From the NCBI GenBank assembly GCA_001189275.1, contig CP012158.1, positions 1,603,704 through 1,667,703 of the forward strand: a stretch of 64,000 nt of DNA, written 5' to 3'. Origin of the DNA: Pyrobaculum sp. WP30. Lineage in GTDB: Archaea; Thermoproteota; Thermoprotei; Thermoproteales; Thermoproteaceae. This document shows, piece by piece, positions 5,448 to 46,803 of the stretch (positions are counted from its first letter, which is position 1; each line of letters opens with the position of its first letter). A program made the position numbers and the translations under genes. The notes below the pieces were generated by a model. It had not been told where the DNA came from. It was given only the letters and a program-made list of their open reading frames with translations, and did not search any database.

Positions 5448-6190
5448 CCGAGGCCGCGGCGTATTACGACGCCATAGCCCACATCTACAGCGACATCTAC
5501 CTCCGGATGGAGTACTACAGACTGCTGTATAGAAAACTCGGCGAGGTCATCGACAGATACATAAGGCCGGGGATGAGGGTTCTCGACGTCGGGGCCGGGA
5601 CGGGGTTCTGGAGCCTATATATGCGGAGGAGGGGGGCCCACGTGGTGTCGCTCGACATCTCCTTCAAATCCCTCGAGACGTGTAGATGCGGCGAGAGGAT
5701 AAACGGAGACGCCGGCCATCTGCCCCTCAAGACGGGAAGCTTCGACGCCGTGACGGCGTTCGGCAGCGTCTACAACCACATCTCGGGGCTGGCAGACGCC
5801 TTTACCTCCGCGTTGCGCGTCTTGAAGAGAGGCGGCCTCTTCATCGCCGATGTGGACAACGCCGTCTGCCTAGACATGCTCTACGAATACCTGCTGTATC
5901 AAGGCCTCGGCAGGTTGAAAAACGCGCTTCTGCGCGGCGTCGTGGAGGGCAGGTGGGAGTCGGCACACGGCGAGATACCCTTCACCTACTACTCCTACTT
6001 CTACGTGAGGGCCGCGCTGAGGAGGGCCGGCCTCAAGCTGGTGGAGGCCAGACCCGTCTACCTCCTCCCGCCGCTCCCCACCAGGCTGTTGCAGAGACGT
6101 CTCAGGCTGAGGTGGCTGGAGCGGCTCGACCACCTGCGGCCGCTGGCCCCCCTCGCCACGACCGTTGTCTACGTCGCCGTCAAAGCTTGA
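5444..6190 (+). CDS. Class I SAM-dependent methyltransferase
   Basis: A Rossmann-fold methyltransferase of 248 residues. SAM motif I is VLDVGAGTGFWS near residue 45, followed by an acidic strand end (VVSLDIS), a GDAGHLPL segment typical of motif III, and DAVTAFGSVYNH as motif IV. The closest familiar group is the broad UbiE/small-molecule methyltransferase type; the substrate cannot be read from the sequence. It starts on a GTG within the stop of the PINA-like gene and is probably translationally coupled to it. Its 3' end overlaps the convergent RNase Z gene by 11 nt. Confidence 0.85.
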   Translation: MTEAAAYYDAIAHIYSDIYLRMEYYRLLYRKLGEVIDRYIRPGMRVLDVGAGTGFWSLYMRRRGAHVVSLDISFKSLETCRCGERINGDAGHLPLKTGSFDAVTAFGSVYNHISGLADAFTSALRVLKRGGLFIADVDNAVCLDMLYEYLLYQGLGRLKNALLRGVVEGRWESAHGEIPFTYYSYFYVRAALRRAGLKLVEARPVYLLPPLPTRLLQRRLRLRWLERLDHLRPLAPLATTVVYVAVKA

Positions 6191-7043
6191 CGAGGATGGT
6201 GTCGAAGTCCTCCGGCACGTAGATGTGTGGCGGGGGCTGGACGGCCCGCGCCAGGGCCCTGTGTCTCCCCTTGTCGGGATACCTCGCGCTGACGTGGGTG
6301 AGGACGAGGACCGACGCCTTAAGCGCCCTCGCCGCCTCCACCGCGTCCGCCACGGTGGAGTGCCCCTCCTCATGGGCCTTGCGGGGATCTACGTCATCTG
6401 CGAAGGTGGCCTCATGGATCAACACGTCCACCCACTCCACGCTCCTCCACATGTCGGGGCAGGGCCCTGTGTCGCCGGTGTAGAGAAGCCGCCGGAACCT
6501 CCTATGTGAGGGGTCCGCCACCTCCTCCGGCCTGATGACGCGGCCCCCCACCTCCACCGCCTCCCCCCTGATGAGGCTGGTCAAGGCCCACCTAGGCAGG
6601 TCGGCAACCTTCGAGAGGTCGAGCTTATAGCCCACGTCCCACTCCAGAAGCCACCCGCAGGCGTCGACGGTGTGGCACACCTCCACACATCGAATCTTGA
6701 GGCGCCCCCCGTCGTAGCTGTCGCCCACCTCCACGCCAAGCCTCCCCAAGGCTTCGTGCATAGTCCTCGGCGCCAGCACTCTGAGCCTGCCCCCCAGGAA
6801 TCTGCTGGTCAGCACCAGGCCCGGGAGCCCCAACACGTGGTCTTCGTGCGAGTGGGTGATGGCCACGAGGGTGAGGGAGGCCGGCGATACGTCTATATGC
6901 AGAAGCCTATACTGAGCGCCCTCTCCGGCGTCTAGCAGAATCCTGTGCCCCAGCCAGTCTTCTAGATAAATCGCCGGCAACGTCCTCTCCGCCTTGGGTA
7001 CCGCTCCCCCCGTGCCGAGGAAAACCAGCTTGAGGAGAGGCAC
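6180..7043 (-). CDS. rnz: Ribonuclease Z (tRNA 3'-end endonuclease)
   Basis: A metallo-beta-lactamase-fold nuclease that cuts pre-tRNA just 3' of the discriminator base. It has the zinc motif H64-S-H66-E-D68-H69 in THSHEDHVLGLPG, later metal ligands in YTGDTGPC and the HEATF segment, and the family's terminal THVSARY motif. Its 287 residues fit the short RNase Z form. It should be important here because the tRNA gene in this window does not encode CCA. It lies 19 nt downstream of ksgA on the same strand, suggesting a two-gene RNA-processing operon. Confidence 0.95.
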   Translation of the reverse strand: MPLLKLVFLGTGGAVPKAERTLPAIYLEDWLGHRILLDAGEGAQYRLLHIDVSPASLTLVAITHSHEDHVLGLPGLVLTSRFLGGRLRVLAPRTMHEALGRLGVEVGDSYDGGRLKIRCVEVCHTVDACGWLLEWDVGYKLDLSKVADLPRWALTSLIRGEAVEVGGRVIRPEEVADPSHRRFRRLLYTGDTGPCPDMWRSVEWVDVLIHEATFADDVDPRKAHEEGHSTVADAVEAARALKASVLVLTHVSARYPDKGRHRALARAVQPPPHIYVPEDFDTILVKL

Positions 7044-7062: not shown

Positions 7063-7755
7063 TTAAAAAGCCTTCCTGGACTTGTACAGCTCGACTATTT
7101 CCTCCAGGGAGAGCTGATATACGCGTTTTTCGGAGTTAGCCAGCTTCAGCCGCCGGAGGGTTTTTCTCCTTGCCGAGAAGAGCCAGGCGGTGAACCGCTG
7201 GAACTCCTCGAAGTCTTCCACGCAGGGCTCTCTAGGCGTTAGGCGGACCACGGCGGAGTACACCTTGGGCGGCGGCTCGAAGGCCTGCGGAGGCACGACC
7301 CGGAGCACCTCCACCTGGTAGTGACACTGGACGGCCACGGTGAGGCGGCCGTAGTTTTCGCCGCCGGGCTCTGCGGCCAAGCGCTCGGCCACTTCCCTCT
7401 GCACAGTCACAACCGCCGGCAACCGGCATCTGGCGAGCTTCAGGAGGAGAGGCGACGTTATTGAATACGGTATGTTCGACACGAAGAAGTCGGCCCTGGG
7501 CCACTCCAGCTCCAGCGCGTCGCCCACAACAACCACCACGTTGGGCGGCGCCGTCTGCATCAGCGCCTCCGCGAGGGCCGCGTCCACCTCTATGGCGTAG
7601 ACCAACCTGGACTTCCGCGCCAGGGGAATCGTGAGAACGCCCTCGCCGGGCCCCACCTCGATCACATCCAAGCCGCTAGGCACGAGGCTCACTATGTACT
7701 CAGCCACGGCGTCGTCCCTCAAAAAGTGTTGCCCAAGCCTCTTCCTCCTACGCAC
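7063..7755 (-). CDS. ksgA: 16S rRNA adenine dimethyltransferase KsgA/Dim1
   Basis: Dimethylates two adjacent adenines in the terminal hairpin of 16S rRNA during small-subunit assembly. It shows the family signature KRLGQHFLRDD at the N terminus, SAM motif I EVGPGEGVLT, the acidic strand EVD, GDAL, and the catalytic motif NIPYS. The track of in-frame starts allows an ATG at 7773, but a TATA-like element (ctaaata near 7774-7781, reverse strand) lies about 22 nt upstream of the GTG at 7755, so a leaderless GTG start just before RRRKRLGQHF is preferred. Followed closely by rnz. Confidence 0.93.
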   Translation of the reverse strand: MRRRKRLGQHFLRDDAVAEYIVSLVPSGLDVIEVGPGEGVLTIPLARKSRLVYAIEVDAALAEALMQTAPPNVVVVVGDALELEWPRADFFVSNIPYSITSPLLLKLARCRLPAVVTVQREVAERLAAEPGGENYGRLTVAVQCHYQVEVLRVVPPQAFEPPPKVYSAVVRLTPREPCVEDFEEFQRFTAWLFSARRKTLRRLKLANSEKRVYQLSLEEIVELYKSRKAF

Positions 7756-11026: not shown

Positions 11027-11073
11027 AGGGCTTTTTCGCATTAAATTTATAAACCGCGAGATAGGGCTTTGCC

Positions 11074-11781
11074 ATGTCTATTGAAGTGGTGGACGTCAGA
11101 CCCCATGAGCATCACTACGGCGTATACATCATCAAGTTCGAGGACGGGTCGGAAAGACTCGCCACGAGGAACCTGACGCCTGGCAAAAGGGTATACGGCG
11201 AGAGACTCGTCAAGTGGGGGGGCGCGGAGTACAGGGAGTGGAACCCCTACCGCTCAAAGCTCGCCGCCGCGATAGCCAACGGCCTAAAGTACGTCCCAAT
11301 ACAGGAGGGCACGCATATACTCTACCTGGGCGCGGCCTCAGGCACAACTCCCAGCCACATGAGCGACATCGTTGGGGATAAGGGGTTGATATACTCCGTC
11401 GAGTTCTCCCCCCGCGTCTTCAGGGAATTCATGGAGAAGCTCGTGGACCAGGGGAGGAGAAACGTGGTTCCCATCCTCGGCGACGCCAGATTCCCATATC
11501 AATACGCCCACTACGTAAAAGGCGTAGACGTGGCCTACATCGACGTGGCCCAGCCAGCGCAGGCCAAGATCCTAGCCGACAACGCGGACTACTTCCTCAA
11601 ACCCGGAGGACACGTAATGCTGGTGATAAAGGCCATGAGCATAGACGTAACAGCCCCAGCCACAGAGACGTTTAAACAAGAAACCAACACGCTGAAGGAG
11701 AGGGGCTTCGACATACTAGAAGTCGTCCACCTAGAGCCCTACGACACAGCCCACGCGATGGTCGTAGCAAAAAAGAAGTAA
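11074..11781 (+). CDS. flpA: Fibrillarin, C/D RNP 2'-O-methyltransferase
   Basis: The catalytic subunit of box C/D RNPs. Its 235 residues match archaeal fibrillarin, with the conserved [27 protein letters not shown] region, SAM motif [20 protein letters not shown], the VEFSPR strand-2 end, and [13 protein letters not shown]. It lies 47 nt after nop5 but has its own strong TATA box (aaatttataaac) about 25 nt before the ATG, so it can be transcribed alone as well as with nop5. Confidence 0.97.
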
Positions 11782-38405: not shown

Positions 38406-38483
38406 CAACCGTGACGGAAACCACGTTATAAATATCTTTGATCCCTAAAGCAAAATATATAAACGACATACATGAGGGGGGTC

Positions 38484-38696
38484 ATGATTATATATACGTC
38501 ACAGATACACCTAATAGAAGACGTCGAGTCCATGCTGGAGAAGTACAAGGTGAAGCCTGTCGCCGTGAAAGGCGCAAGGCTAAACTTCTACTGGCCCCCG
38601 CAACCCACCGGCGTCCCAATAAACCTGTTGAAGTACTTCCCGCCGGACATGTACGTGGTATTTAGAGGAAAAAACAACCTGATAATTGTGCCATGA
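38484..38696 (+). CDS. Unknown small protein, first gene of an overlapping cassette
   Basis: A 70-residue protein I do not recognise. It reads as beta-helix-beta: MIIYTSQIHLIEDVESMLEKY, then VAVKGARLNFYWPPQP and MYVVFRGKNNLIIVP. The ATG at 38484 is chosen because a TATA box (aatatataaac) lies about 25 nt upstream; an in-frame ATG at 38472 is also possible. Its stop overlaps the start of the next gene by 4 nt (ATGA), beginning a run of four genes joined in this way. Confidence 0.75.
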   Translation: MIIYTSQIHLIEDVESMLEKYKVKPVAVKGARLNFYWPPQPTGVPINLLKYFPPDMYVVFRGKNNLIIVP

Positions 38697-38830
38697 GAAC
38701 CCTCCAGAAGAAAAGGGTGGCGGAGCTCCCGGTCAGCCAGCAGATAAAAGACGTGTTGATCAAGGTGCTGGGCCCCAACGAGGAGGTATATGTGGAGGTT
38801 GTGGGCGGAAGGATTAGGGTGATCCTATGA
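38693..38830 (+). CDS. Unknown 45-residue protein in the overlapping cassette
   Basis: A very short gene recognisable from its setting: its ATG lies in the ATGA overlap with the preceding gene and its TGA in the ATGA overlap with the following one. The product begins MRTLQKKRVAELPVSQQI and continues KDVLIKVLGPNEEVYVEV to a GGRIRVIL end. The basic N terminus and strand-helix-strand pattern resemble small nucleic-acid-binding or antitoxin-like proteins, but no family is assigned. Confidence 0.75.
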   Translation: MRTLQKKRVAELPVSQQIKDVLIKVLGPNEEVYVEVVGGRIRVIL

Positions 38831-39252
38831 TGGTGGTTAGGTCGACCAGCATGGAGAAGGTCATCTGGCACGTGAGGTCTCTACTGCCGCAGCTGGAGTC
38901 CACGCCGATTACTCTAGCCCGCCGGCAGGTGGGCAACCACGTCATAGGCCTAGGCACCTTGGGATACCTCTACACGGCCTTGTCTTCGGTGCTCGAAACG
39001 CTGGTCGAGGCGGGGAAGATGGCAAACGACCTCAGACTCAAAGACTACACAGTCGTGATGGGGCCCGAGGAGAGCTACATAACCACAACCCCACTGCCGG
39101 AGGTGATACCGCCCCTGCCGCCTCCTAGGGAGGTCCCGCCGCTCCCCAAGCAGTCTGTTGAGCTCAACACTTTCGGTTGCCCGAACCTGACGCTGGGCAT
39201 GGTTAAGTTCTGCGTCGGCGACGTAGAAATCGCCTACTATCTATCACGATGA
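38827..39252 (+). CDS. Unknown protein with a proline-rich linker, third in the cassette
   Basis: A 141-residue protein. Residues about 1-85 are helical (MEKVIWHVRSLLPQLE and LGYLYTALSSVLETLVEAGKMANDL) followed by a strand YTVVMGPEESYITTT; a Pro-rich linker (PLPEVIPPLPPPREVPPLPK) leads to a short C-terminal piece with two cysteines (FGCPNLTLGMVKFCVGDVEIAYYL). Joined by 4-nt overlaps to the genes on both sides. No known family is evident; a helical bundle with a tethered domain that could contact the other cassette proteins is a reasonable guess. Confidence 0.75.
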   Translation: MMVVRSTSMEKVIWHVRSLLPQLESTPITLARRQVGNHVIGLGTLGYLYTALSSVLETLVEAGKMANDLRLKDYTVVMGPEESYITTTPLPEVIPPLPPPREVPPLPKQSVELNTFGCPNLTLGMVKFCVGDVEIAYYLSR

Positions 39253-39578
39253 TACTCCTCTCTCTTTCTGAGCTGGAGTCGCTGTTGACAACGCTAAGGG
39301 AATACGCCGAGAAGTACAGAACAAGCAGGCCGGCGCTGGAGGCCCTGGAGGAGAGGTGGGTTAAATTCCAGGAACTCGCCTTCGCCTTCGGCATAGAGCT
39401 GAAGCCAGCTGAAGGCGTTGAGTTCTACGCCGGCGGTCCGTTGCCCGACAACGTAGAGCTCTTGAAAAAACTTGACCGGATGATCGCCACGGTGAAGAAA
39501 CTAAAGGAGACCTATGGAGATGTCAAAGTCATCGTAGACATGGACCTATCCATAAGAAAAACCGTTTTAAAGATATAA
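39249..39578 (+). CDS. Unknown coiled-coil-like protein, fourth in the cassette
   Basis: A 109-residue protein with a long first helix (LSLSELESLLTTLREYAEKY to LEALEERWVKFQELAFAFGIEL), a Gly/Pro turn, a second helix (VELLKKLDRMIATVKKLKETYG) and a terminal strand VKVIVDMDLSIRKTVLKI. It starts within the stop of the third cassette gene (ATGA) and ends the run. The next gene, a CBS protein, has its own TATA box, so the cassette is a separate four-gene operon. Confidence 0.75.
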   Translation: MILLSLSELESLLTTLREYAEKYRTSRPALEALEERWVKFQELAFAFGIELKPAEGVEFYAGGPLPDNVELLKKLDRMIATVKKLKETYGDVKVIVDMDLSIRKTVLKI

Positions 39579-39606: not shown

Positions 39607-40026
39607 ATGCCTTTGGTGAAACGTAGAGAGCTCCCGTTGAGAGTTTCCGACATAATGGTTAAGGATGTGGTGACGGCCAAGGAAAACGACAAGATCAGAG
39701 ACGTGGCTATTCGCATGTATGAGAAGAAGATCGGCAGCGTGGTGGTCGTAGACGACGAGGGGAAGCCGATAGGCATAGTCACTGAGAGAGACATGGTCTA
39801 CGTAGTGGCGCGGGCGCTCGCCCCTGACACGCCTGTGTGGATGGTTATGACGGAGGATCCCATTGTGATAAATGAAAACGCCCTGGTTACAGAAGCCATG
39901 GAGAAGATGCGTGTACAAAACATTAGGCATCTGCCTGTGGTAAACGCCGAAGGCAAACTAGTGGGCATGATATCCTTTAGAGACATAGTGGACTTCACCG
40001 CGGTGTTGCTGTCCCTCGGTAAATGA
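39607..40026 (+). CDS. Twin CBS-domain protein
   Basis: A 139-residue protein made of two CBS repeats: VSDIMVKDVVTAKENDKIRDVAIRM with GSVVVVDDEGKPIGIVTERDM, and VMTEDPIVINENALVTEAMEKM with RHLPVVNAEGKLVGMISFRDIV. Such modules bind adenosine nucleotides or SAM and regulate partners. A TATA box (tttaaataac) lies about 22 nt upstream. The stop overlaps the start of the DUF309 gene by 4 nt, so the two are an operon and may work together. Confidence 0.92.
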   Translation: MPLVKRRELPLRVSDIMVKDVVTAKENDKIRDVAIRMYEKKIGSVVVVDDEGKPIGIVTERDMVYVVARALAPDTPVWMVMTEDPIVINENALVTEAMEKMRVQNIRHLPVVNAEGKLVGMISFRDIVDFTAVLLSLGK

Positions 40027-40717: not shown

Positions 40718-41638
40718 CTAGAGTATCTTCACGTATTCCCTCGCCGTCGCGGCAAAAGCCAATAGCCCCTTGGGTCTATACACCTCCTTCATTTTGTCTT
40801 CATATGTTTCGTATCGCTTAAATTCCAGCTCTAGCTTGACCTCCTTCACGGCGCCGTTTTGGGCGCAGTACGCCTTCGGCGGGTTTAGGGAGAGACAAGC
40901 CTCCGACCCGTCCTTTGCCACGTATGTCTCCACCGTGTAGGGGTGGAGGATGCTCATCGGGTTCCGCCTCACCACCTCCACCATCCACGGAAATCTACGC
41001 ATAACCTTAGCTATTTCAACCAGCCTATCCCTAAGATCCAGCCACTTCCTAACCCACTCCACGCCGAAGGCTCCCAGCTCCGGCCACTCCTTCAGAAGCT
41101 CCTCCACGGGGTCGATCTTGACAACTAAAGCAGGCTCAGGCGGCTCATTCATCTTCTCCACCTCCTTCTTGTAGTCCTCTATAATCTGCCTGACACAGTC
41201 CTCCACTGCGCGGCAATGGGGCTGGTACAGCTTTACTCCATTCACGACGGGGCCACAGTAGACGTCGTATTGATTAACCCCCACACCCACCTTCACATAT
41301 TCATACCACAGCCCCACGTCATAACGGTCAGACAACTCCCACAAGGCGTCAGCCACTTGTTGCTTGATACAGCCGCCCGCGTCCTCATCCCTACGCCTCC
41401 TCCACCTCTCCTTCACCTCCCACCTCCTCCTATCCCTTGAGTGAACCCACACCCTATACCGCACGCATACTCCTTTGCGGCACCCCTCAGCCGTCAGCAT
41501 CCCCTCGTAGAGGCATCCGTCACTTGTACACCACTCCTTGGGCGGAGGCTCATACTCCACATACTGAAGAATGCCAAGTTTCTGCGGCAGTTCAAAAGCG
41601 GCGGCCGTGGCCCTAATCCTTCTGGCGGCTGTCGTCAT
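40718..41638 (-). CDS. Unknown 306-residue protein on the inserted island
   Basis: Not recognised. The N-terminal third contains several cysteines (EWCTSDGCLYEG, GCRKGVCVRY) and a strongly basic stretch WEVKERWRRRRDED. The middle has another Cys group (GGCIKQQVADALWELSDRY, YCGP, HCRAVEDCVRQ), and the C-terminal half is helical, with PVEELLKEWPELGAFGVEWVRKWLDLRDRLVEIAKVM and ending REYVKIL. Basic and Cys-rich parts hint at nucleic-acid or metal binding. The ATG at 41638 overlaps the stop of a truncated upstream gene (ATGA), so it was once the second gene of an operon whose promoter end has been lost. Confidence 0.65.
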   Translation of the reverse strand: MTTAARRIRATAAAFELPQKLGILQYVEYEPPPKEWCTSDGCLYEGMLTAEGCRKGVCVRYRVWVHSRDRRRWEVKERWRRRRDEDAGGCIKQQVADALWELSDRYDVGLWYEYVKVGVGVNQYDVYCGPVVNGVKLYQPHCRAVEDCVRQIIEDYKKEVEKMNEPPEPALVVKIDPVEELLKEWPELGAFGVEWVRKWLDLRDRLVEIAKVMRRFPWMVEVVRRNPMSILHPYTVETYVAKDGSEACLSLNPPKAYCAQNGAVKEVKLELEFKRYETYEDKMKEVYRPKGLLAFAATAREYVKIL

Positions 41639-41745
41639 ATCCACTCCTTCAAGGCCGATATGACCACCTCCACCGCCGCCCTCTCGATTAGGTAGGTACC
41701 CTTCTTGTGCCGCCTCGCGAGTCCTTTCTCCACCAGCCTCACAGA
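41635..41745 (-). pseudogene. Truncated 3' end of a winged-helix-like gene
   Basis: Reverse-strand codons VRLVEKGLARRHKKGTYLIE then RAAVEVVISALKEWI and stop look like the wing and last helix of a winged-helix DNA-binding protein. The stop overlaps the ATG of the 306-residue gene by 4 nt, the mark of a genuine operon partner. Upstream of about 41745 the frame turns into antisense of the PaREP2-like fragment, so the 5' part of the gene is gone. Confidence 0.45.
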
Positions 41746-41754
41746 TTCACCTCT

Positions 41755-42464
41755 ACCGCCCCCGACAGCATACGGCGGGAGGCGCAACGGCTTGAGAACA
41801 TGGGCCTGGAGGAGGGCAAGCATTTCACGGTGAAGATGCCGGAAGGGGACCACGATGGCTATGTGTATGTCCGTAGGGAGGGCCTTGAGCGCGCCGCGTG
41901 GCTCTCCGTACGCGGCGAGGGAGAACAGCAGAAGCTGGCGGCGGAGTTTATAGAGTACATACTCCAGAGGGCGAAGGAGAGGGGCGACGACGTTCACGAA
42001 AAAGCCAGTAAGATCGTGGAGGAGGGGATGTCAAGGGCTCCCTAACGCTAAAGGGCTTCGAGAAGGAGGTCGAAGCGGACGGCAGAAAACACAAGGTGAG
42101 GGAGGTAAGCGGAGGTGCCGAGCTTGAGGAAAGGTAGGGCGACAAGAAGTTGCTGAGGATTAAGATAACGGCTGAGGTGGACGGCATAAAGAGCGAATAC
42201 ACGATTACCTGCGGCAGGTATGGAAAGCTCAACGCGGCCTTGGGACGCGCCTACGCCAGGGCCGACGTCCCCGGCGGCAGGAAGGCAGACGCCGAGAGGC
42301 TCGCCGCCCTTATAAAGGCCCTCACGGGAAGGGAGCCGAGGATAATTGAGAGGGGCGACGGCCAGATAGTGTTGGAGTGCTATGGAGAGCACCTAGACGG
42401 CTTCGCCCGCTACGCCGAACTCGCAGAAGCCATAAGGAGATGGCAGGAGGAGACAAGCCGGTGA
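41755..42464 (+). pseudogene. PaREP2-like repeat-family gene, broken
   Basis: Pieces in two frames read as one protein resembling the Pyrobaculum PaREP2 family: EAQRLENMGLEEGKHFTVKM, then YVYVRREGLERAAWLSVRGE and AAEFIEYILQRAKERG, a frameshift near 42030, then GSLTLKGFEKEVEADGRKHKV, an in-frame TAG at 42135-42137, and LLRIKITAEVDGIKSEYTIT through ADAERLAALIKALTGREPRI to the end WQEETSR. The N-terminal part of the family is absent and the gene is not translatable as a whole. Family recognition is from memory of these proteins, not from a search. A candidate agent or passenger of the local rearrangement. Confidence 0.7.
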
Positions 42465-45817: not shown

Positions 45818-46042
45818 GTGTGGCTAATCATGGGGGTTTTGCTAAACATAGCCTCCTTCGCGCTGTGTGTGCTAGGCCAGACGCTGGTAGCCGCGTCTGT
45901 ATATTTGGTTAGCTTGGCGCTTATCTTCATTGGAGGACGGGGGAGGAAAGAGAAGAGGGAGAAGAAGAGGCAGGTGGAGACTAGGCAAGAGCCCACCCCC
46001 GACGAGATTAAGAGGAGGCCCGTCTCGGCACCTGAGATATGA
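45818..46042 (+). CDS. Small membrane protein linked to a ParA/MinD-like ATPase
   Basis: A 74-residue protein with two adjacent membrane helices (IMGVLLNIASFALCVLG and LVAASVYLVSLALIFIGG) and a very basic, hydrophilic C-terminal tail (KEKREKKRQVETRQE). GTG start with a Shine-Dalgarno-like ggggaggt a few nt upstream. It overlaps the ATPase gene by 4 nt (ATGA). The pairing suggests a membrane tether or partner for the ATPase; that is inference. Confidence 0.75.
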   Translation: MWLIMGVLLNIASFALCVLGQTLVAASVYLVSLALIFIGGRGRKEKREKKRQVETRQEPTPDEIKRRPVSAPEI

Positions 46043-46803
46043 AGAAGCTGATCTTCCTCTCGGGGACTAAGGGAGGCACCGGAAAGACCACTCTAGCCTT
46101 AAACTCAGCAGTGTTATTAGCCTTTTTATGGAGGGACGTAGCCCACTACCCCGTGGCCTTTTTAGACCTAACGCCGAACGTAGGGACGGCGGCTCTTATA
46201 CTCCTGGGAGATCCCCTCGCGACGTGGGGCAGACCTTCTCTGTCGGACTTCGCAGGTGGGAACATCGCAGACCCCTTGAGGGCCTTCTACATAAGGAGGT
46301 GGAACACCGAGAAGGGGGCCTTTCAGCTGGTCTTTACCTACATGGCGCAAGACGTCCCGCTGACGAGGCGGCATCTGGAATATGTGATACAGATGGTGGA
46401 GTCCCGCCTCAAGCCCAAGGTTCTCTTTTTCGATGCGCCTCCCCTCTCGGCGGGTAGCCCCCTCGCGGGGCTTGTGGACTACGTAGTGCCTGTGGTTACG
46501 CCCGACGTCTCGGCGGTTGAGGCCACCAAGAGCTACGTGGATCTCGTCGGCGGCAGGAGGCTTAGGCCGGTCCTCAACATGTACATACCTGAGTACTCCA
46601 TCAGCGCGGTACACGGCATGCCCTGGGAGCTGGTGATAGAGAAGACCTTGGGCGAGCGGCCCCACGTTATACCTTTTGACAAGCTTCTGCAGGCGGCGAG
46701 GCAGGCCCTGGAAGTAGAGGTGCTGAAGCTAAGGCCTGGGGAGTCCCCAGGGGTGAAGGCCCTTGCGGAGTACGCCCGCTACCTCGCCGCTACGGTTGGC
46801 TAG
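46039..46803 (+). CDS. ParA/MinD-family ATPase
   Basis: A 254-residue deviant-Walker ATPase. The N terminus LIFLSGTKGGTGKTTLALNSA carries the KGGTGKT signature with the extra lysine, and VLFFDAPPL is the Walker B region. PVAFLDLTPNVG is the switch-like strand. The family positions DNA, proteins or membrane machines. There is no ParB-like gene beside it; instead it follows a small membrane protein, so a role at the membrane, as for MinD-like or Get3-like proteins, is plausible. Confidence 0.85.
   Translation: MKKLIFLSGTKGGTGKTTLALNSAVLLAFLWRDVAHYPVAFLDLTPNVGTAALILLGDPLATWGRPSLSDFAGGNIADPLRAFYIRRWNTEKGAFQLVFTYMAQDVPLTRRHLEYVIQMVESRLKPKVLFFDAPPLSAGSPLAGLVDYVVPVVTPDVSAVEATKSYVDLVGGRRLRPVLNMYIPEYSISAVHGMPWELVIEKTLGERPHVIPFDKLLQAARQALEVEVLKLRPGESPGVKALAEYARYLAATVG

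Follow-up and report, generated by a model that had tools for sequence, protein, structure and literature searches.

Four family-wide genes of Thermoproteaceae as a probable cytosolic accessory module of the type IV pilus

The products of four small overlapping genes of Pyrobaculum sp. WP30 are probably cytosolic accessory parts that act as a module at the motor of the main type IV pilus (T4P) of the Thermoproteaceae. We give this reading a rough probability of 0.68. The genes lie on the forward strand of the window, a contiguous stretch of 64,000 nucleotides from a 1.99 Mb Pyrobaculum-like genome (G000, genus g1). They are assigned to the T4P because they are located in the pilus cluster in two lineages and because most Pyrobaculum genomes have a rare promoter in common between these genes and pilus genes. 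That the four genes are associated with the T4P in some way is likely, and more so than the specific placement at the motor.

Organization of the four genes

Gene 1 (P0001, 38484..38696) encodes 70 amino acids, gene 2 (P0002, 38693..38830) 45, gene 3 (P0003, 38827..39252) 141 and gene 4 (P0004, 39249..39578) 109, all on the plus strand. ORF analysis placed ATGA junctions at 38693, 38827 and 39249. These coordinates confirm the first-pass annotation, which had described four ORFs joined by three ATGA overlaps behind one TATA box. The single TATA box was found within a BRE/TATA-like element, AAAGCAAAATATATAA, at 38447..38462 on the plus strand. Given the position of the box, the mRNA is probably leaderless and begins at the ATG at 38484. 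This start codon was set from the alignment of gene 1 homologues (MI..T), which confirms it, and from the spacing to the TATA box.

The junctions are retained in related genomes. Genes 1 and 2 overlap by four nucleotides in all 18 measurable genomes, and genes 2 and 3 do so in 17 of 19, the other two having a gap of 2 nucleotides (+2). The junction of genes 3 and 4 is an overlap wherever these genes adjoin (-4, -1 or -14). An ATGA overlap is weak evidence by itself; one also joins the two genes that come next in the window, which encode CBS-domain and DUF309 proteins. Gene order is the same in all examined Thermoproteaceae except G007, in which gene 4 is located on a separate contig, apart from genes 1 to 3. 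The strict coupling proposed earlier is therefore not absolute, and gene 4 is separable from the other three.

Conservation and phyletic range

Homologues of genes 1 to 4 are present in all 19 Thermoproteaceae genomes examined, which represent three genera. Within Pyrobaculum the third codon position varies most in all four genes, and pN/pS is 0.23 for gene 1, 0.34 for gene 2, 0.27 for gene 3 and 0.22 for gene 4; the genes are under purifying selection. The 45-codon gene 2, which had been proposed as a true gene despite its length, occurs in every one of these genomes, and its pN/pS and invariable overlap with gene 1 bear this proposal out. Loss of the reading frames or of the gene order in close relatives had been named as grounds for rejecting the set, and both are kept over the three genera. 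Gene 1 is frameshifted in the small draft genome G010 (L051:7106-8407). In the same genome the CBS-domain and propeller genes are likewise frameshifted or interrupted (L051:7106-8407, L144), which probably reflects sequencing errors.

In a sample of 300 genomes from the phylum, no homologue of gene 4 was found beyond the Thermoproteaceae. For genes 3 and 4, the other genomes of the class that were examined gave no convincing match. One gene 4 match in G264 (2.2e-4) was rejected, as the sequence resembles a ribbon-helix-helix coiled-coil protein and the other three genes are absent. Genes 1 to 4 are real, conserved and restricted to the family, and are not chance ORFs.

Features of the encoded proteins

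Profile searches of the four proteins against Pfam, NCBIfam, PHROGs, PADLOC and the PDB gave no usable match, in agreement with the initial view that none carries a recognizable motif. A match of each protein to an unrelated known family, which would have dissolved the set, was not obtained in these searches. An Rfam scan gave no match. No membrane segment was found in any of the four proteins (none above KD 1.6). The small gene 2 product is basic, with a net charge of +3, as had been noted. The gene 3 product consists of a strand-helix-helix-strand-strand core, a proline-rich linker and a C-terminal hairpin region with a cysteine pair (C118 and C129). Both the linker and the pair had been pointed out previously, and the alignment shows the two cysteines to be invariant. 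Disulfides are usual in Pyrobaculum proteins, and C118 and C129 plausibly form one. In the AF2 model of this protein (pLDDT 73) a strand-helix-helix-strand arrangement is seen, and the linker and the C-terminal part are weak. The gene 4 product was modeled (pLDDT 78) as a helical hairpin with terminal strands, in which helices H6-46 and H69-89 account for the long helix predicted from the sequence.

Comparison of the models of proteins 3 and 4 with the PDB (Foldseek, VIA-align) returned only generic helical hairpins, none at Z >=8, which does not equal a new fold. Prefoldin resembles the long helical hairpin of protein 4, and 1fxk_A ranks second among the matches (Z 6.7, rmsd 4.7, 88 aligned residues). 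However, this score is tied with those of many unrelated coiled coils, and no Pfam prefoldin match was obtained. Two candidates were discarded: a likeness of the gene 3 product to Roadblock/MglB, judged by eye, was unsupported, and a derivation of genes 1 to 4, or of the 71-aa pilus protein described below, as paralogues of one strand-helix-strand unit was suggested by alike architectures but gave non-significant profile comparisons.

Linkage to the type IV pilus cluster

In the two draft genomes of genus g3 (L058, L059) all four genes are part of the T4P cluster. The order there is pilin, second pilin, platform, ATPase, a gene for a 71-aa protein, a gene for a 168-aa membrane protein and genes 1 to 4, which begin 48 bp past the 168-aa gene and are convergent with a gene for an 854-aa secreted propeller-like protein. 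In G007 (L047/L099), a single draft that is alone in its lineage, genes 1 to 3 are located between the pilin and propeller genes and a set of wHTH-like, platform, ATPase, 71-aa and 170-aa genes, in an orientation that differs from that in g3. These three drafts are all the genomes in which linkage was found. In both lineages the pilins adjoin the propeller gene and the T4P core. A tree of the platform proteins does not place g3 and G007 as sisters; in it, G007 is the earliest branch of g1, at a modest support of 87/82. The remaining genomes examined have three separate sets, consisting of the pilin and propeller genes, the platform, ATPase, 71-aa and 170-aa genes, and genes 1 to 4; in all, 16 of the 19 genomes have the module away from pilus genes.

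By its sequence features, the linked locus is that of an archaeal T4P system, with a T2SSE/ArlI ATPase, a TadC/UpsF/ArlJ-like platform and pilins with a class III signal peptide. The ATPase matches Pfam T2SSE (1.9e-25) and the archaellum motor ArlI/FlaI (8e-50). The platform protein has about nine hydrophobic segments and matches UpsF over most of its length, at 1.1e-10, which is under the curated equivalog cut-off. The pilin is homologous to the P. arsenaticum pilin 6w8u (E 3.8e-18). A platform orthologue occurs in the same 19 genomes as genes 1 to 4, with marginal matches only elsewhere in the class. This common range is weak evidence, because genes 1 to 4 and the pilus set are both simply family-wide.

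The pilus ATPase gene is always followed by two genes, one for the 71-aa protein, in which two cysteines are invariant, and the other for a membrane protein of about 170 aa (L091:10815-11027 and 11027-11536 in G000; homologues in L058, L059 and L092-L102). Among the members scanned, neither protein matched a Pfam or NCBIfam family. Profile comparisons revealed no homology between these two proteins and proteins 1 to 4. Downstream of the propeller gene of G000 (L100:7429-15990) there are genes for pilin-like or secreted proteins of 453, 147, 1099 and 231 aa, and similar-looking sets are located directly before the platform gene in Thermoproteus (L095, L096).

A promoter element in common with pilus genes

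The gene 1 promoter AAAGCAAAATATATAA resembles that of the T4P platform operon in Pyrobaculum, AAAGYAAAATATTTAA, and that of the pilin gene, ACCACAAAATATWTAA, or ACAGCAAAATATTTAA in G004 and G005. The pattern was first drawn from two sites, and circularity was removed by a search with the gene 1 element only and by a matrix built without gene 1. With up to two mismatches, the 16-mer of gene 1 has 0 to 13 sites per whole Pyrobaculum genome, and these include the platform promoter in 8 of 11 genomes and the pilin promoter in two (G004 and G005). The matrix derived from the pilin and platform promoters only scored the gene 1 promoter at 27.0 bits, first of about 128,000 window positions, the next reaching 15.8. 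In seven of the ten Pyrobaculum genomes (G000, G001, G003, G004, G005, G008 and G009) gene 1 is preceded by a site of at least 22 bits, and the site in G010 is weak, at 10.9. The matrix scan gave no such element for gene 1 of P. calidifontis (G002) or of G006, and none was seen in Thermoproteus. Throughout 343 kb of Pyrobaculum DNA, all sites of at least 19 bits precede gene 1, the platform gene, the pilin gene or the post-propeller region, the two sites in the last group being assigned by position. The whole-genome scan with the 16-mer is the stronger test, because pilus loci are over-represented in the 343 kb set. A promoter close to the element was also observed before a Nudix-like hydrolase gene in G004 (L142:1074) and G001 (L143:1731).

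Linkage and promoter also bear on a different assignment, in which genes 1 to 4 encode an independent cytosolic housekeeping complex of the Thermoproteaceae, for example in nucleic-acid binding or protein handling. The nearness to pilus genes would then be a leftover of an ancestral gene order, and the promoter would merely be of a similar strong type. The presence of a single copy family-wide, the smallest genomes included, agrees with such a complex, as does the separation from pilus genes in most genomes. It is also consistent with the lack of any sequence or fold match that joins one of proteins 1 to 4 to a known T4P part. However, the linkage occurs in two non-sister lineages and in differing orientations, and the promoter has a rare element that elsewhere occurs mainly before pilus genes. 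A housekeeping complex is therefore considered unlikely, and membership in the T4P system is preferred.

Downstream boundary of the operon

The CBS-domain gene starts at 39607, directly after gene 4, and a DUF309 gene follows the module in Pyrobaculum, via the CBS-domain gene, and in Thermoproteus. An energy- or metabolite-sensing operon formed with these two genes would agree with the arrangement in five of six Thermoproteus genomes, in which gene 4 either overlaps the DUF309 gene or directly adjoins it. However, the CBS-domain gene was found next to the module only in Pyrobaculum and in neither of the other genera, and in Pyrobaculum a separate TATA-like box precedes its start by 22-30 bp. 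Likewise, the DUF309 gene is unlinked in g3 and was not found in G007. A sensing operon is thus very improbable, and gene 4 is probably the last gene of the operon. Still less credible is a set of genes from a mobile element, a virus or a defence system, which small genes of no known family in an archaeon might bring to mind. Searches of PADLOC, of phage records and of viral contigs gave no match, the matches in PHROGs were marginal only, and every family member has the genes in collinear order, unlike what is seen for mobile genes.

Two further observations concern the DNA downstream of the module. The stretch at 40719-42460, which contains a 308-aa ORF and its neighbours, is repeated upstream of the pilus platform operon (L091:304-1005, 5969-6991 and 7101-7603) with 71-81% DNA identity and probably belongs to a lineage-specific repeat family. 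A gene for a ParA/MinD-like ATPase (GTKGGTGKTT) at 46039-46803 follows the DUF309 gene at a distance of about 5.5 kb, and P. calidifontis has a similar gene near the module (L042:13831-14595). MinD-like ATPases linked to T4P in Thermoproteales are described in a survey of these systems (PMC4858521).

Proposed role and relation to known systems

The first-pass annotation had considered the four genes a possible undescribed small machine. That they are undescribed and act together is supported, but they probably do not constitute a machine in their own right, as neighbourhood and promoter point to an accessory part of the T4P. The proteins are cytosolic, small and of alpha/beta type, and their genes have the promoter type of the platform and ATPase genes, all of which suggests cytosolic proteins that scaffold or regulate the base of the pilus. 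The cell would produce the products of genes 1 to 4 along with the pilus motor. Their helical hairpins and terminal strands would provide the contacts by which they assemble against the cytosolic side of the UpsF/TadC-like platform and the ArlI-like ATPase. The linked 71-aa protein and the membrane protein of about 170 aa would probably join them. Such an assembly may support or regulate pilus extension, in a role like that of ArlX or ArlCDE in the archaellum. For a physical complex of the four products the chances are about even. A scaffold or regulator of the motor, rather than for instance a chaperone, is a somewhat weaker proposal, and within the pilus system the proteins might instead chaperone assembly or form a complex for signalling. 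More tentatively still, proteins 1 to 4 might form with the 71-aa and about 170-aa proteins a novel cytosolic motor complex, a ring or a switch, that controls extension or retraction of a T4P without a PilT-type ATPase.

In the archaellum, ArlX of Crenarchaeota forms a ring around ArlI/ArlH, and ArlC/D/E of Euryarchaeota are soluble partners that act together (PMC8978795). The likeness lies in the proposed role only, that of cytosolic proteins around an ArlI-type ATPase and an ArlJ-type platform (PMC8978795). ArlX has a transmembrane segment, which proteins 1 to 4 lack, and shares no sequence match with them; they have no Pfam or NCBIfam match to the ArlC, ArlD or ArlE families either, and the module consists of four separate small proteins. 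We know of no comparable small-protein module in the Aap locus of Sulfolobus. The Aap pilus is nevertheless similar as a crenarchaeal T4P of the same core type (PMC11178785).

According to the Thermoproteales survey, clade 4E systems have a membrane protein and a cytoplasmic protein, and T4P loci hold further small cytoplasmic proteins with no assigned role (PMC4858521). The linked locus is like the systems described there in its ATPase, TadC-like platform, membrane protein and small cytoplasmic protein, with pilins often apart, and the platform locus appears to fit the clade 4E description (PMC4858521). The sections of the survey that were consulted describe no T4P link of the four-gene module (PMC4858521). 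A neighbourhood survey of Pyrobaculum and Thermoproteus would miss it, because the module lies away from the T4P locus there.

The filament structure of the Pyrobaculum pilus has been solved for P. arsenaticum, and the virus PFV2 uses the pilus as its receptor (PMC7347861). What is known of the assembly machinery comes from gene surveys only, and the present analysis adds four family-wide proteins without known relatives as testable candidate pilus parts. It also illustrates how rare linked genomes and a common promoter element can reveal the machine to which a dispersed operon belongs. Archaea have no PilT homologues, and the Aap pilus of Sulfolobus retracts without PilT (PMC11178785). Because archaeal pili can retract in this way, cytosolic partners of the motor yet to be recognized are a missing piece. 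If the motor complex of proteins 1 to 4 with the 71-aa and about 170-aa proteins is true, it would represent a third solution beside ArlX and ArlCDE.
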